Shown in pieces: positions 42,577 to 48,500 of a DNA stretch of 64,000 nt (its first letter is position 1; each line of letters opens with the position of its first letter). Under the pieces are notes generated by a model. The model did not search any database. It was not told where the DNA came from and worked only from the letters and a program-made list of their open reading frames with translations. This DNA is from Micromonospora sp. WMMA1947 (GTDB lineage: Bacteria; Actinomycetota; Actinomycetes; Mycobacteriales; Micromonosporaceae). Both the position numbers and the translations under genes were made by a program. Where the stretch lies: NCBI RefSeq assembly GCF_027497355.1, contig NZ_CP114909.1, positions 6,220,001 through 6,284,000 of the forward strand, read 5' to 3'.

Positions 42577-45500
42577 TCAGTCGCGGTCGATGTGGTGGCC
42601 CACCACCGTCGGGCCGAGCATGACGGCGAAACCGGAGCCGTCTCGGCGCGGGTCAGCAGGGGGCAGTTCCACCGGGTCGCCGGTGGCCGTCGCACCCACC
42701 GGCCGCGGACCGATCCACGCCACCGACAGCTCCACCTCACCCTTGAGGAACCGCTGCGCGCGGACGCCGCCGGTCGCCCTCCCCTTCGCCGGGTACGCCT
42801 TGAACGGCGTCACCTTCACCGTGGCTCCGGTCGAGGTGACCACCATCGGCTCACCGTGCTTCGCGTCGTCGGTGCGGATCGCGCCGAAGAAGACCGCCCG
42901 GGCGTCGCCTGGCAGGTTGATGCCGGCCATGCCGCCGCCCTTGAGCCCCTGCGGGCGTACCACCGATGCGGCGAAGCGCAGCAGCGACGCCTCCGAGGAG
43001 ACGAACGCCAGCGTCTCGGCGCCGTCGGTCAGCCAGGTCGCGCCGATCACCTCGTCGCCGTCGCGCAACGAGATCACCTCGAACTCGTCGGAGCGGACCG
43101 GCCAGTCCGGGGCGCACACCTTCACCACGCCGGCCCGGGTGCCGAGCGCCAGACCGGGCGAACCCTGCGCGGACGGACCCAGCGGGGCGAGCCCCACCAC
43201 CGTCTCGCCCGGCTCCAGCGGCACCAGTTCCGCCGCCGACATGCCACCGCGCAGTGACACCGTGCCGGACTGCTCCGGCAGCACCGGCAACGGCAACACG
43301 TCGATCTTGAACGCGCGCCCGGCGCTGGTCACCAGCAGCACCCGGCCGCGGGCGGTGGAGTGCACGAGCGCGCGTACCGCGTCGTGCTTGACCCGGCCGC
43401 TGCGCCGGCGCGCCTCGGCGGCCTCCTCCGACTCGGCCGCGGTCCGCGCCACCAGCCCGGTGGCGGAGAGGATCACCTGGCACGGGTCGTCGGCGACCTC
43501 CAGCGGACCGGCGGGCACCGAGGCGGCGAGCACCTCCTTGAGGTCGCCGTCGACGAGCGTGGTGCGCCGCGGCGCGCCGAACTGCTTGACCACGGCGGCC
43601 AGCTCGTCGGAGACGACCTTCCGCAGCACCTTGGGATCGTCCAGGATCTTCGACAGCTCGGCGATCTCGCCGCGCAGCTTCTCCTGCTCGGCCTCCAGCT
43701 CCAGCCGGTCGTACTTGGTCAGCCGGCGCAGCGGAGTGTCCAGGATGTAGCTCGCCTGGATCTCGGAGAGCTTGAACTTCTGCATCAGGCCGTCCTTGGC
43801 GGCCTGCGCGTCCTCGCTGGCGCGGATCAGCTTGACCACCCGGTCGATGTCGAGCAGGGCGATCAGCAGACCGTCGACCAGGTGCAGGCGCTCCTCCCGC
43901 TTGCGCTTGCGGTACGCGCTGCGCCGGGTCACCACCTCGTAGCGGTGCGCCAGGAACACGTCGAGCAGTTCCTTGAGCCCGAGCGTGCGGGGCTGGCCGT
44001 CGACGAGCACCAGGTTGTTCACGCCGAAGGACTGCTCCAGCGGGGTGAGCCGGTAGAGGTCCGCGAGCAGCGCCTGCGGGTTCACGCCGACCTTGCACTC
44101 CACCACCAGGCGGGTGCCGTTCTCCCGGTCGGTGAGGTCCTTGACGTCGGCGATGCCGGTCAGCCGCTTGGTCTTGTTCACCTCGTTGGTGATGGCCGCG
44201 ATGACCTTCTCGGCGCCGACGCCGTACGGCAGCTCGGTCACGGTGATGGCCTGCCGGCCGCGGCTGCCCTCCAGCGGGCCGATCTCCACCCGCCCGCGCA
44301 TGCGCACCACGCCGCGCCCGGTCTCGTACGCGCGGCGCACCTCGTCCAGGCCGAGCAGCAGCCCGCCGGTGGGCAGGTCGGGGCCGGGGACGAACTCCAT
44401 GAGCTTGTCGAGCGTGGCGTCCGGGTGGTTGATCAGCCAGCGGGCGGCCTGGACCACCTCACCGAGGTTGTGCGGGATCATGTTGGTCGCCATGCCGACG
44501 GCGATGCCGGACGCGCCGTTGACGAGCAGGTTCGGGAACGCCGCCGGCAGCACGGTGGGCTGGGTCAGCGAGCCGTCGTAGTTCGGCTCGTAGTCGACGG
44601 TGTCCTCACCCAGCTCGCCGGTGAGCAGCATCGCCTCGCGGGACATCCGGGCCTCGGTGTTGTGGTTGACGAAACCACCGGCCAGGAAAGAGTGGTCCGC
44701 GGATTCGACTCGAACGGAAAAGACCTCCGCCGGCTCGTCGGGAGCAACCGCGACGACCTTCTCGTACCGATAGCCCGCATCCATGACGGGCAGGATCGTG
44801 GCAAGGATCTCGGTGTCCTTGATGCGGTCGATGATGCGGAGTCGTTCGGTTTCCCACCGCTCGACACGATCGAAGTTGTGGCTGGTGAGCCACTTGCGTC
44901 CGCTGCCCCGACGATCGAAGTCGATGCTGCTGCGCACGTAGTCGGCCACAAAGGGGACATGGTCCTGACTGAGCCGATGCGGGCGCAGCGGCGCGTGCCG
45001 CAGCATCTTGGCCAGCACCGCCTGCTTGGTACGGAGAAAGCCGACACGAGTTGCGAAAGCCCTGATGTTTCGCGTCCCGGAAACCACCAAGCGGTGCTCC
45101 ACCGAGCCACTGGGCCGGGTGTAGTGGCGTCGACAGGCGATCACACCGAACTCCGCGAGCAGTTCTTGCACCTCCCGAGTCAGACGCTCGCTGTAGCTGG
45201 TGTACTGGATGGTGAAGCTGCTGTTGGCGACGCGGACTCCGCCGTCACCTTCGAAGAGGGCCATCAGGAAGGCCCTCTTGATGCCCCACCCCCCTGCCCA
45301 GACGAATTCGGGCACGAACTTGTCTCTCGCCTGGTGACCGATGAGCTCGGCGAGTGGACTCGCCCGGAAGGCGTCCATCCCGCCGGCGACGTCTTGGACG
45401 TCAAGTTCGTGAATACGGCGACGGTCTCGGCGCGTGTGCCGGTCGTTGACGTAGCGGCGTCCAGCCACGACCTGGTCGTAGGCATGCAGGACCTCGCCGA

Positions 45501-46353
45501 AGAAGTGCTCATCGGTATTGCTGAATCCTGCCCGCGACTCGCTGGCGAAGCCTTCAGAGACCCAGGCGCCGCCGAGCACGCCGAGCATGTATTCACGAGC
45601 GGTGGGGACGACCTGGTTCCATGCGTTCCGCGCGATACAGACCACGGAGCCCGGCGTCACCTCATCGAGCCGACGCCATTGGAAGACAGGGACGCCCATC
45701 GGAGCTTCGAGGCAGAGAACCAGATGATTCTCACTACCACGGAGGGAGAATCCGGTCTCAGTCGTGAACCGGATCGTCGGGTGGACACCCGAGTTGAAGA
45801 CCTTGTTGACGCGAACCGCTTTGCCGTCCTTGTCGAGGACTTCGAAATCGGCCTCCGCCTCGCTGTTCGGCGGCAGGTCGACCACATCACCGATCCGTGG
45901 GCTGCTGCCATCGGCCAGGCGGATCCGGGTGTCACCGACGACGCAGTAGCGCGCCGCGGCCGGTCCGTCGTCCGGGGAACCGAAGTTGCCGTGCCCGTCG
46001 ATGAGCGGGACGTTGAGCGAGAAGTCCTGCGCCAGCCGCACCATCGCGTCGTAGATGGCGGTGTCGCCGTGCGGATGGTACTTGCCCATTGTGTCGCCGA
46101 CGATGCGGGCGCTCTTGACGTGGCCGCGGTCCGGGCGGTGGCCCTGCTCGTGCATCGACCACAGGATGCGCCGGTGCACCGGCTTGAGCCCGTCGCGCGC
46201 GTCGGGCAGGGCGCGGGAGTGGATGACCGAGAACGCGTACTCCAGGTAGGAGTCCGAGACCTCGGTGACCAGCGGGTTGTCGAAGACGCGGGCGCCGGCC
46301 TGGTCGAAGGCGGCGAGGTCCGCCTTCGCGCGGTCGTCCTTGCGGCGTGCCAT
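42577..46353 (-). CDS. parC: DNA topoisomerase IV-type subunit A with intein
   Basis: 1258 aa precursor from ATG 46353 (AAGGGA upstream). The extein N-part has PLVTEVSDSYLEYAFSVI, ALPDARDGLKPVHRR, HPHGDTAIYDAMVRL and, at residue 136, the catalytic tyrosine in AAARY. An intein of 429 residues (137-565) then interrupts, and the extein resumes TEARMSREAMLLTGEL, FPNLLVNGASGIAVGMATN. A C-terminal beta-pinwheel follows, with a degenerate box QGLKGGG. The spliced protein would be about 829 aa. It cuts and rejoins DNA together with the ParE-like subunit encoded 32 bases upstream. Whether it is decatenase or gyrase-like cannot be told; actinomycetes carry a separate gyrBA near the origin. Confidence 0.92.
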   Translation of the reverse strand: MARRKDDRAKADLAAFDQAGARVFDNPLVTEVSDSYLEYAFSVIHSRALPDARDGLKPVHRRILWSMHEQGHRPDRGHVKSARIVGDTMGKYHPHGDTAIYDAMVRLAQDFSLNVPLIDGHGNFGSPDDGPAAARYCVVGDTRIRLADGSSPRIGDVVDLPPNSEAEADFEVLDKDGKAVRVNKVFNSGVHPTIRFTTETGFSLRGSENHLVLCLEAPMGVPVFQWRRLDEVTPGSVVCIARNAWNQVVPTAREYMLGVLGGAWVSEGFASESRAGFSNTDEHFFGEVLHAYDQVVAGRRYVNDRHTRRDRRRIHELDVQDVAGGMDAFRASPLAELIGHQARDKFVPEFVWAGGWGIKRAFLMALFEGDGGVRVANSSFTIQYTSYSERLTREVQELLAEFGVIACRRHYTRPSGSVEHRLVVSGTRNIRAFATRVGFLRTKQAVLAKMLRHAPLRPHRLSQDHVPFVADYVRSSIDFDRRGSGRKWLTSHNFDRVERWETERLRIIDRIKDTEILATILPVMDAGYRYEKVVAVAPDEPAEVFSVRVESADHSFLAGGFVNHNTEARMSREAMLLTGELGEDTVDYEPNYDGSLTQPTVLPAAFPNLLVNGASGIAVGMATNMIPHNLGEVVQAARWLINHPDATLDKLMEFVPGPDLPTGGLLLGLDEVRRAYETGRGVVRMRGRVEIGPLEGSRGRQAITVTELPYGVGAEKVIAAITNEVNKTKRLTGIADVKDLTDRENGTRLVVECKVGVNPQALLADLYRLTPLEQSFGVNNLVLVDGQPRTLGLKELLDVFLAHRYEVVTRRSAYRKRKREERLHLVDGLLIALLDIDRVVKLIRASEDAQAAKDGLMQKFKLSEIQASYILDTPLRRLTKYDRLELEAEQEKLRGEIAELSKILDDPKVLRKVVSDELAAVVKQFGAPRRTTLVDGDLKEVLAASVPAGPLEVADDPCQVILSATGLVARTAAESEEAAEARRRSGRVKHDAVRALVHSTARGRVLLVTSAGRAFKIDVLPLPVLPEQSGTVSLRGGMSAAELVPLEPGETVVGLAPLGPSAQGSPGLALGTRAGVVKVCAPDWPVRSDEFEVISLRDGDEVIGATWLTDGAETLAFVSSEASLLRFAASVVRPQGLKGGGMAGINLPGDARAVFFGAIRTDDAKHGEPMVVTSTGATVKVTPFKAYPAKGRATGGVRAQRFLKGEVELSVAWIGPRPVGATATGDPVELPPADPRRDGSGFAVMLGPTVVGHHIDRD
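44659..45945 (-). mobile_element. Intein in parC with LAGLIDADG homing endonuclease
   Basis: 429 residues inserted exactly between the catalytic Tyr and the following Thr of ARY/TEARM. Splicing residues are Cys1 (block A CVVGDTRIRLADG), a block B His in GSENHLVL, the C-terminal block GGFVNHN with terminal Asn, and a +1 Thr. Endonuclease dodecapeptides are LGVLGGAWVSEG and FLMALFEGDGGV, each with an acidic residue, so it may be active. GyrA inteins of mycobacteria sit at the equivalent place. The DNA is less GC-rich than the extein: 38 of 60 bases on the line at 44701 against 44 of 60 at 43201. That fits lateral spread. Confidence 0.93.
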
Positions 46354-46385
46354 GGTGCGGTTCCCTTCCGAGAAGAACCCGTTGG

Positions 46386-48500
46386 TCAGGCGTCGATGGC
46401 GTCGCGGTCGACGCGGTCGGCGGAGTCGATCAGCCAGTTGCGGCGGGGTTCGACCTTCTCCCCCATGAGCAGTTCGAGGATCCGCTCGGCAGCGTCGACG
46501 TCGTCGAGCGTGATCCGGCGGACCGCCCGGGTGGCCGGGTTCATGGTCGTCTCCCACAGCTCGTCGGCGTCCATCTCACCGAGGCCCTTGAAGCGCGGGA
46601 TCGGCGTGACGATCTGCTTGCCGGCCTTCTCCAGCTTGCGCACCGTCGCCTCCATCTCCGCCTGCGTGTAGGTGTAGACGGTCTGCGGGTTGCGCCCCTT
46701 CGTGGTGATCTTGTGCAGGGGCGGCATCGCCGCGTAGAGCCGCCCGGCCTCGATCAGCGGCCGCATGTAGCGGGCGAACAGCGTGATCAGCAGGGTACGG
46801 ATGTGCGCGCCGTCGACGTCCGCGTCGGCCATGATGAGCACCCGGCCGTACCGCAGCGCCGACAGGTCGAACGTCCGGCCGGAGCCGGCGCCGAGCACCT
46901 GCACGATGGCGGCGCACTCGGCGTTGTCCAGCACCTGCTGGAGGTTCGCCTTCTGCACGTTGAGGATCTTGCCCCGGATCGGCAGCAGCGCCTGGTATTC
47001 CGACGAGCGGGCCATCCGGCTGGTACCGAGGGCGCTGTCGCCCTCCACGATGAACAGCTCGCTGCGCTCCACACCGGTGGCCCGGCAGTCGACGAGCTTG
47101 GCCGGCATGGCCGCGCCCTCCAGCGCGGTCTTGCGGCGGGCGGCGTCCTTCTGCTGCTTCTGGGTGAGCCGCACCCGGGCCGCGTCGACGATCTTCTGGA
47201 GCACCGTCCGGGCCTCGGCCTTGGTGCGGCGGTCGTCCAGCCAGCTCTTGAGGTGCGCCTCGACCAGGCCCTGAAGCACCTTGGTGATGCCGGCGGTGGA
47301 CAGTTCGTCCTTGGTCTGCGAGGTGAACTGCGGCTCGGGGATGCGCACGTGCACCACCGCGGTCATGCCCTCCAGGACGTCGTCCAGGGTGGGCGCGTCC
47401 TCCTTGGGCTTGAGCAGGCCGCGGGCGTTGCGGGCGGCGTCGGCGAGGGTACGGGCCAGCGCCCGCTCGAAGCCCTTGCGGTGCGTGCCGCCGTGGGCGT
47501 TGCGGATGGTGTTGGTGAAGCACTCGACGGTGCGCTCGTAGCCGGTGCCCCAGCGGAAGGCCACCTCGACCTCGGCGCGCCGCTGCACGTTGGACTGCAT
47601 GACGCCGTTGGCGTCGGCGGCGTTCTCCCGGTAGGTGCCCTCGCCGGTGACCAGCAGCGTGCCGGAGACGGGCCGGTCGCCGGCCGGGGCGAGGTATTCC
47701 ACCATGTCGGTGAGCCCGTTGGGGAAGTGGAAGCGCTCCTCGACGGATTCCTCGCCGGTGTCGTCGCGCAGCCGGTAGGCCACGCCGGGGACGAGGAACG
47801 CGGTGTTGCGCAGCTTGAGCCGGACCGCCTCGGTGTCGAGCGCGGCACCGGTCTCGAAGTAGCGCGGGTCGTGCCACCAGCGGATCGAGGTGCCGGTGCG
47901 CTGGCCGCGCTTCATCGCGCCGACGATCTGCAGGCCGGGACCGGGGGTGAACGGCGCGTCCGGGCCGTCGCCGTCGAAGACGCCCGGTACGCCGTGACGG
48001 AACGACATGGCGTGGACCTTGCCGCCCCGCCGGACCGTGACGTCGAAGCGGCGGGACAGCGCGTTGACCGCCGACGCGCCGACGCCGTGCAGGCCGCCGG
48101 AGGTCTTGTAGCCGGAGCCGCCGAACTTGCCGCCCGCGTGCAGGCGGGTCAGCACCAGCTCGACGCCGGAGATGCCGGACTTGGCGTGCACGTCGGTGGG
48201 GATGCCCCGGCCGTCGTCGTCGACCTGGACCGAGCCGTCGGCGTGCAGGATCACGTCGACTCTGGTGGCGTGACCGGCGACACCCTCGTCGGTCGAGTTG
48301 TCGAGGATCTCGTTGACGAGGTGACCCACGCCACGGCTGTCGGTCGAGCCGATGTACATGCCCGGGCGCTTGCGGACGGCGTCGAGGCCTTCCAGGTGCG
48401 TCAGGTCGTCGGCCCCGTAGAGGGTGTCAGGCTGTGCGGTCAACTGGTCGTACTCCCAGGTCTCGGCGGTGTGGTGCCGTTCACCGTGTGATCCCCCCAC
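46386..48500 (-). CDS. parE: DNA topoisomerase IV-type subunit B
   Basis: 704 aa from GTG 48500. The GHKL ATPase motifs are LVNEILDNSTDE, VDDDGRGIP and GLHGVGASAVNALS, the transducer follows, and the TOPRIM domain has LFIVEGDSALG and MADADVDGAHI. The C-terminus has PRFKGLGEMDADELWETTMNP. It pairs with the ParC-like gene downstream. The start is uncertain: conserved sequence begins at the TTG codon 48443 (TAQPDTLYGADDLTHLEG), which has GGGAG at normal distance, whereas GTG 48500 has none. The shorter protein (685 aa) may be the true one. Confidence 0.92.
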   Translation of the reverse strand: MGGSHGERHHTAETWEYDQLTAQPDTLYGADDLTHLEGLDAVRKRPGMYIGSTDSRGVGHLVNEILDNSTDEGVAGHATRVDVILHADGSVQVDDDGRGIPTDVHAKSGISGVELVLTRLHAGGKFGGSGYKTSGGLHGVGASAVNALSRRFDVTVRRGGKVHAMSFRHGVPGVFDGDGPDAPFTPGPGLQIVGAMKRGQRTGTSIRWWHDPRYFETGAALDTEAVRLKLRNTAFLVPGVAYRLRDDTGEESVEERFHFPNGLTDMVEYLAPAGDRPVSGTLLVTGEGTYRENAADANGVMQSNVQRRAEVEVAFRWGTGYERTVECFTNTIRNAHGGTHRKGFERALARTLADAARNARGLLKPKEDAPTLDDVLEGMTAVVHVRIPEPQFTSQTKDELSTAGITKVLQGLVEAHLKSWLDDRRTKAEARTVLQKIVDAARVRLTQKQQKDAARRKTALEGAAMPAKLVDCRATGVERSELFIVEGDSALGTSRMARSSEYQALLPIRGKILNVQKANLQQVLDNAECAAIVQVLGAGSGRTFDLSALRYGRVLIMADADVDGAHIRTLLITLFARYMRPLIEAGRLYAAMPPLHKITTKGRNPQTVYTYTQAEMEATVRKLEKAGKQIVTPIPRFKGLGEMDADELWETTMNPATRAVRRITLDDVDAAERILELLMGEKVEPRRNWLIDSADRVDRDAIDA

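Follow-up and report, generated by a model that had tools for sequence, protein, structure and literature searches.

Inteins that interrupt the A subunit of DNA gyrase (GyrA) between the catalytic tyrosine and the following threonine, i.e., the Tyr/Thr or GyrA-a site, are well known. The subject of the present analysis is a 64,000-nucleotide stretch of the genome of Micromonospora sp. WMMA1947 (contig NZ_CP114909.1, positions 6,220,001 to 6,284,000; hereafter the window), in which a LAGLIDADG intein occupies the same point (here termed site a) of parC, the gene encoding subunit A of topoisomerase IV. The ParC intein shares its Tyr/Thr insertion point and class 1 residues with the mycobacterial GyrA-a inteins, represented by the Mxe GyrA mini-intein (PDB 1am2) and that of M. 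leprae, and its splicing domain is homologous to that of the Mxe intein (36% identity over 177 residues). It is unlike the mycobacterial group in its ParC host, in belonging to a separate clade and in following a host loop of eight rather than nine residues before an Arg-Tyr pair, and unlike the Mxe intein, whose chain comprises 199 residues, in its full-length nuclease domain. It has the insertion point of the GyrA-a group, but neither a gyrA host nor a place in the GyrA-type clade. The primers used for deletion of the M. leprae gyrA intein abut, on our reading of the portion of that report consulted, at Tyr/Thr (PMC6658535).

More distant parallels are found in the Staphylococcus jumbo phages PALS_2, DC4, MarsHill and Madawaska, whose GyrA, likewise the A subunit of a type IIA topoisomerase, contains an intein; for phage DC4, the part of the source seen reports a LAGLIDADG_3 domain (PMC10638138). 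These phage inteins exhibit only about 21-30% identity to the ParC intein, mostly across its first 103 residues. Paralogous hosts also occur among the eukaryotic RNA polymerase subunits, whose inteins, according to the section consulted (PMC1635734), mostly lie at different sites and are not generally closely related, whereas gyrA and parC share both site and intein lineage. No description of a ParC intein was found among the open-access papers listed, judged by title and abstract start, subscription papers and InBase being outside this search, while database names for intein-bearing ParC proteins include DNA gyrase subunit A and DNA topoisomerase IV. The predicted mechanism is the ordinary one of the GyrA-a kind; the ParC host and the occupancy of two genes are apparently new to the searched literature.

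The minus-strand frame 42577-46557 is an uninterrupted open reading frame and, with the start taken at MARRK (46353), encodes a 1258-residue precursor. Residues 137-565 constitute an insert (1287 nucleotides) which, from the codons, begins with Cys, ends in His-Asn and is flanked by Tyr136 and Thr; its removal yields an 829-residue ParC with the junction ...FGSPDDGPAAARY/TEARMS.... The initial annotation, made from the letters alone, had placed a 429-residue LAGLIDADG intein at 44659-45945, between the catalytic Tyr136 and Thr at the point used by GyrA inteins, with an acidic residue in both dodecapeptides; its boundaries are exact to the base, and the acidic residues are E131 and D234. Profile searches of the insert returned LAGLIDADG_3 (Pfam, E 8e-19), Intein_splicing (E 5.8e-5, under the curated cut-off) and the NCBIfam model intein_Nterm (over its cut-off), while an intein-containing GyrA model matched residues 1-429 with an E of 2.8e-112, falling under its own cut-off because the insert represents a mere part of this whole-protein model. 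A chance origin of these matches is excluded. Furthermore, the class 1 residue set is complete (Cys1, Asn73-His74, His428-Asn429 and Thr+1), the confident predicted structure has the Hint (horseshoe) fold and matches intein-endonuclease structures, and the predicted helices 116-130 and 220-234 end directly at E131 and D234 of the two dodecapeptides. Cys1, His74, His418 and His428 are invariant in all 160 unique inteins compared (106 of GyrA and 54 of ParC), as is the terminal Asn, although the latter was demanded by the parser. The element is very probably a class 1, bifunctional and mobile intein of the GyrA-a type that resides in parC.

From these sequence features we infer splicing, DNA cleavage and homing. 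According to established class 1 chemistry, Cys1 would attack the peptide bond behind Tyr136 with the assistance of the block B His74, Thr+1 would then receive the N-extein, and Asn429 would cyclise, assisted by His418 and His428, so that Tyr136 and Thr are rejoined in an 829-residue ParC with a restored active site. The central LAGLIDADG domain is predicted to cleave parC alleles without the intein at the corresponding point, and repair of the break would copy the intein in (homing).

The host is ParC. The gene parE lies directly upstream, and the source genome (a single contig of 6.31 Mb) contains exactly two A-subunit matches, and no third, at E ≤ 0.001: the window ParC and a GyrA of 1259 residues, encoded at 1.97 Mb of the contig (C1) and adjoining a gyrB of 648 residues. 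The window protein scores over the cut-off of PRK05561 and under those of both the gyrA and parC equivalog models of NCBIfam. In a quick tree of 80 exteins, GyrA (43) and ParC (37) separate in one change with a Shimodaira-Hasegawa-like approximate likelihood ratio support of 100; this tree, for which the program warns of long branches (including L139 beside the ParC side), comprises four empty alleles and 76 of the 87 rows of our intein tree, the others being too short or unparsed. The intein tree itself was hand-picked from 116 non-redundant inteins plus the GyrA intein of the source genome, with 30 near-copies or very short ones omitted. The assignment of the host to a topoisomerase IV-type subunit in the initial annotation is thus upheld, and the contingency it had named, that the host is GyrA itself, does not apply.

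With regard to the condition of the nuclease, Asp234 is kept in each of the 47 full-length ParC-hosted inteins and Glu131 in 42 (otherwise Gly in three, Ala in one and Gln in one). The ratio of nonsynonymous to synonymous substitution (dN/dS, by the method of Nei and Gojobori, NG86), determined for 13 of 14 Micromonospora ParC inteins with the one of 430 residues omitted, has a median of 0.073 in the nuclease region (range 0.022-0.12, 78 pairs) and amounts to 0.092 in the splicing parts. These ratios show purifying selection on the nuclease domain, and the nuclease of the window copy likely works. Evidence on mobility comes from composition and distribution. The GC content of the intein is 63.5% compared to 71.7% for the extein (78% versus 96% at third codon positions, GC3), and a similar GC3 gap is seen in all 14 Micromonospora ParC inteins read (0.74-0.86 versus 0.92-0.98). 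The transfer proposed in the initial annotation on the basis of lower GC is likely. A tree built from the C-extein DNA of 51 parC loci of Micromonospora requires 14 changes in intein presence, one per bearer (n=14), with well-supported branches dictating 12 of them, and shuffled labels are at least as clustered (mean 12.4 changes); this sample is non-random, its empty alleles having been picked by similarity to the window or by long frames. The 151 Micromonospora genomes contain some 302 parC and gyrA loci, of which about 100 were read.

Other observations weigh against an active and mobile element. The acid at position 131 is absent in 5 of the 47 full-length ParC inteins, so that some of these nucleases are probably dead, and a first LAGLIDADG motif usually ends in Asp, where the window copy has Glu131. 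The extein dN/dS, at 0.165, is not strictly comparable to the values above, because a GC3 near 0.96 depresses NG86 dS. Sliding windows at empty alleles display a divergence excess just upstream in several pairs, empty-empty pairs included, and no clear co-conversion tract. Finally, the Spirilliplanes ParC intein groups with that of Actinokineospora in the intein tree (95/96) and with Actinoplanes in the extein tree, which is suggestive of transfer between families; an approximately unbiased (AU) test, however, did not reject a tree holding the 12 Micromonosporaceae ParC rows together (p 0.313).

The lack of a clear conversion footprint would fit an intein that still splices but has lost its cleavage activity, with ordinary homologous exchange of whole parC alleles as the source of the patchiness. 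Similarly, nucleotide identity among the window copy and its two nearest bearers is 95.5-96.4% in the intein and 94.1-96.3% in the extein, which fits descent within this small clade combined with allele replacement. However, the strong purifying selection on the nuclease domain, the universal retention of D234 in full-length forms, from which shortened forms are distinct, and the unclustered presence on the extein tree argue against a dead nuclease, which we regard as unlikely, if not negligibly so.

Seven ParC site-a inteins are shortened (188-381 residues) with partial loss of the nuclease (L237-L241, L191 and L194); their hosts are two named Amycolatopsis and five other genomes of the same order, and these forms look like a degeneration series.

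Relatives of the ParC intein extend beyond Micromonospora. The closest inteins, 98% identical, are those of M. sp. C41 and M. chalcea DSM 43026. A survey of the order detected a relative in 71 of 397 genomes (E ≤ 1e-20), with parC as the host in 19 of these among the loci read (14 nearly full-length and five shortened inteins), while a survey of the phylum did so in 23 of 396 (E ≤ 1e-15). Among the 80 of 179 relatives kept, named ParC hosts include members of Micromonospora, Actinoplanes, Spirilliplanes, Lentzea, Saccharothrix, Amycolatopsis, Prauserella, Kutzneria, Actinokineospora, Umezawaea, Nocardioides and Quadrisphaera. A plasmid search and a single viral contig scan (two patterns from a six-sequence alignment) returned no relative, such absences being weak evidence, and phage records hold just eight distant relatives with about 21-30% identity (MW218148.1, LC680885.1 and six more). 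The phage relatives include the GyrA inteins of the Staphylococcus jumbo phages, and one further match lies in the terminase of a Psychrobacillus phage.

The gyrA gene of the source genome is also occupied at the Tyr/Thr point (L002:3388-4647, minus strand, corresponding to C1:1970462-1971721). Its intein, full-length with 420 residues, resembles the ParC intein in size, domain order and LAGLIDADG motifs with Glu and Asp, but is only 45% identical to it and falls within the GyrA-type clade. The initial annotation, which had recommended looking for such an intein, was therefore right about the ParC host, though not in setting ParC in the place of GyrA, since both are interrupted. In the sample of 151 Micromonospora genomes, 61 have a whole-length match to the intein-bearing GyrA and 14 to the intein-bearing ParC. 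Both inteins are present in eight genomes, compared to about 5.7 expected by chance (Fisher p 0.25), and each of these double bearers has two A-subunit matches (E ≤ 1e-100), both interrupted, so that all A-subunit activity there should depend on splicing. Likewise, both type II topoisomerases of the source genome appear to depend on protein splicing. That ParC activity would depend on splicing had already been put forward in the initial annotation, whose description of an essential-type protein is, however, too strong: in the part of the source seen (PMC3905888), topoisomerase IV is dispensable in Streptomyces coelicolor, which has a linear chromosome and is viable without parE, while circular replicons need it.

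Such double occupancy might constitute a regulatory switch, in which stress slows splicing (e.g., by Cys1 oxidation) and thereby controls gyrase and topoisomerase IV together. The interruption of both source-genome A subunits at the catalytic Tyr, with no other A subunit found at E ≤ 0.001, and the eight double bearers are in line with this proposal, but the co-occurrence of the two inteins is not above chance and close relatives lack either of them, and we consider a switch quite improbable.

The comparison with GyrA inteins that the initial annotation had advised places the window intein in a ParC-type clade, in that one branch of the intein tree (support 100/100) separates 35 ParC-hosted and two GyrA-hosted inteins from 50 GyrA inteins. 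The two exceptions, L192 (4001-5281) and L193 (4001-5275), are ParC-type inteins in GyrA hosts from different metagenome-assembled genomes (MAGs) titled 'Actinobacteria bacterium'. Their exteins group with GyrA in the extein tree, and each genome yielded one A-subunit match and no second at E ≤ 1e-30, the completeness of these MAGs not being established. The host label changes twice on the bootstrap trees of the intein (5-95% range 2-2), while an AU test did not reject the ParC inteins as a single clade (p 0.243). In 52 pairings of these two with the main ParC inteins, for which the three most distant ParC rows were set aside, the median intein identity is 68.7% versus 52.7% for the host cores; the excess of intein over host is at least 10.7 points in 52 of 52 pairs, whereas it never surpasses 8.4 points in the 1441 pairs taken within one gene. 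Intein identity exceeds that of the host in 56 of 58 pairs once the three distant rows are added. The intein has thus most likely crossed between gyrA and parC after divergence of the two genes. Descent from an intein that predates the split of GyrA and ParC, followed by nothing except inheritance and loss, would suit the near-complete split of the tree by host gene, the unrejected single ParC clade and the ordinary GyrA-ParC pairs (n=1334), whose median intein identity of 43.6% is near the 48.5% of the extein core, but is rendered extremely improbable by the L192/L193 excess and by two host changes throughout the bootstrap range.

The loop from Gly-Ser to Arg-Tyr measures eight residues in the hosts of all 54 unique ParC-hosted inteins, nine for the 103 GyrA-type inteins in GyrA, and eight in the GyrA hosts of L192 and L193. 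A Dormiibacterota GyrA intein with a nine-residue loop (L197) scores slightly closer to the ParC intein (1038 versus 1015) and lies on the GyrA side of the tree. The 30 site-empty gyrA loci read as nearest to L192 and L193 have an eight-residue loop in 20 cases and a longer one in 10; judged from these relatives, the eight-residue loop is native to this gyrA lineage. A co-conversion from parC to gyrA, for which the ParC-like flank of L192 and L193 (such as GSPDDPPAAARY) had looked like a converted tract, was dropped because the site-empty gyrA of their relatives has such a flank natively.

These two cases suggest, weakly, that the nuclease tracks the local site (loop) rather than the gene: the idea draws on the length of the loop in just these two MAGs, and ungapped DNA identity across positions -24 to +12 favours it for L193 (0.687 to parC sites versus 0.58 to other gyrA sites), not for L192 (mean 0.654 versus 0.673). 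The gyrA/parC pair offers a natural test of whether gene identity or local site limits intein spread, the two MAGs hinting at the site. With the ParC intein, the host range of the GyrA-a site comes to include topoisomerase IV, along with genomes that possess two inteins and in which both type II topoisomerases appear to need splicing. A wider and rather improbable extension is that a single intein lineage specialises in the Tyr loop of type IIA topoisomerases, crossing between gyrase and topoisomerase IV where loop length fits, with double occupancy gating all type II activity. If so, splicing would offer stress, or an inhibitor of splicing, one common point of attack for halting DNA unlinking.

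A second parC site (site b; VGD/C...HN/CMGKYHPHGD) harbours another LAGLIDADG intein in at least 18 of the 151 Micromonospora genomes, with a length of 433 residues in the two measured and site a empty in those 18 genes. The helix concerned is the region known for quinolone resistance. The example in the table below is 24% identical to the window intein, over part of its length only. In other genera both inteins occur within one parC, and site-b forms range from 130 (mini) to 436 residues. A hidden second intein lineage at site a was also considered and rejected, as the 18 Micromonospora parC genes fetched for their long frames and lack of a full-length match were all empty there and held a different intein elsewhere. 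Empty, a-occupied and b-occupied parC alleles among close relatives make Micromonospora a system for measuring intein gain and loss. Database records of about 894-929 residues (P0314, P0327, P0332 and similar) match only approximately one third to two fifths of the site-b intein, and their annotated starts may lie inside it.

Table. Features of the intein-bearing parC locus (window positions) and an example of a site-b intein
Feature	Position	Strand	Basis
parC with intein, 1258-residue precursor (829-residue ParC after predicted splicing)	42577..46353	-	PF00521 E 1.9e-144; PRK05561 over cut-off
ParC N-extein, residues 1-136, ending in catalytic Tyr136 (codon 45946-45948)	45946..46353	-	codon reading
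Intein, 429 residues (CVVGD ... FVNHN)	44659..45945	-	Pfam/NCBIfam profiles, Mxe GyrA intein alignment, structure model
N-terminal splicing half, residues 1-112 (Cys1, block B Asn73-His74)	45610..45945	-	Mxe GyrA intein alignment (query 2-110), conservation; boundary approximate
LAGLIDADG endonuclease region, residues ~113-322	44980..45609	-	PF14528 at 223-302; model range 112-324 in LAGLIDADG matches; boundaries approximate
First LAGLIDADG helix, residues 116-131, acidic Glu131	45553..45600	-	alignment, conservation, predicted structure
Second LAGLIDADG helix, residues 220-234, acidic Asp234	45244..45288	-	alignment, conservation, predicted structure
C-terminal splicing half, residues 380-429 (His418, His428, Asn429)	44659..44808	-	Mxe GyrA intein alignment, conservation
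ParC C-extein from +1 Thr (codon 44656-44658), stop included	42577..44658	-	codon reading
parE, 704 residues, no intein seen, upstream of parC	46386..48500	-	open reading frame and profile matches; places host in topoisomerase IV
Site-b example intein	L062:2335-3633	-	also L063-L079; P0015, P0018, P0022, P0056

A search of the source genome with the intein N-terminal model returned three inteins, i.e., those of GyrA, ParC and a radical SAM protein. The third (L332, C1:1271377-1271601) is located in a radical SAM-like protein behind a C..YC motif, with boundaries read by eye as ACVYC/LGGDTP...VVSHN/CFARN. At the gyrA locus L145 of another genome (G599), a TAG stop interrupts the intein frame, so that the gene may be defective or the sequence in error.

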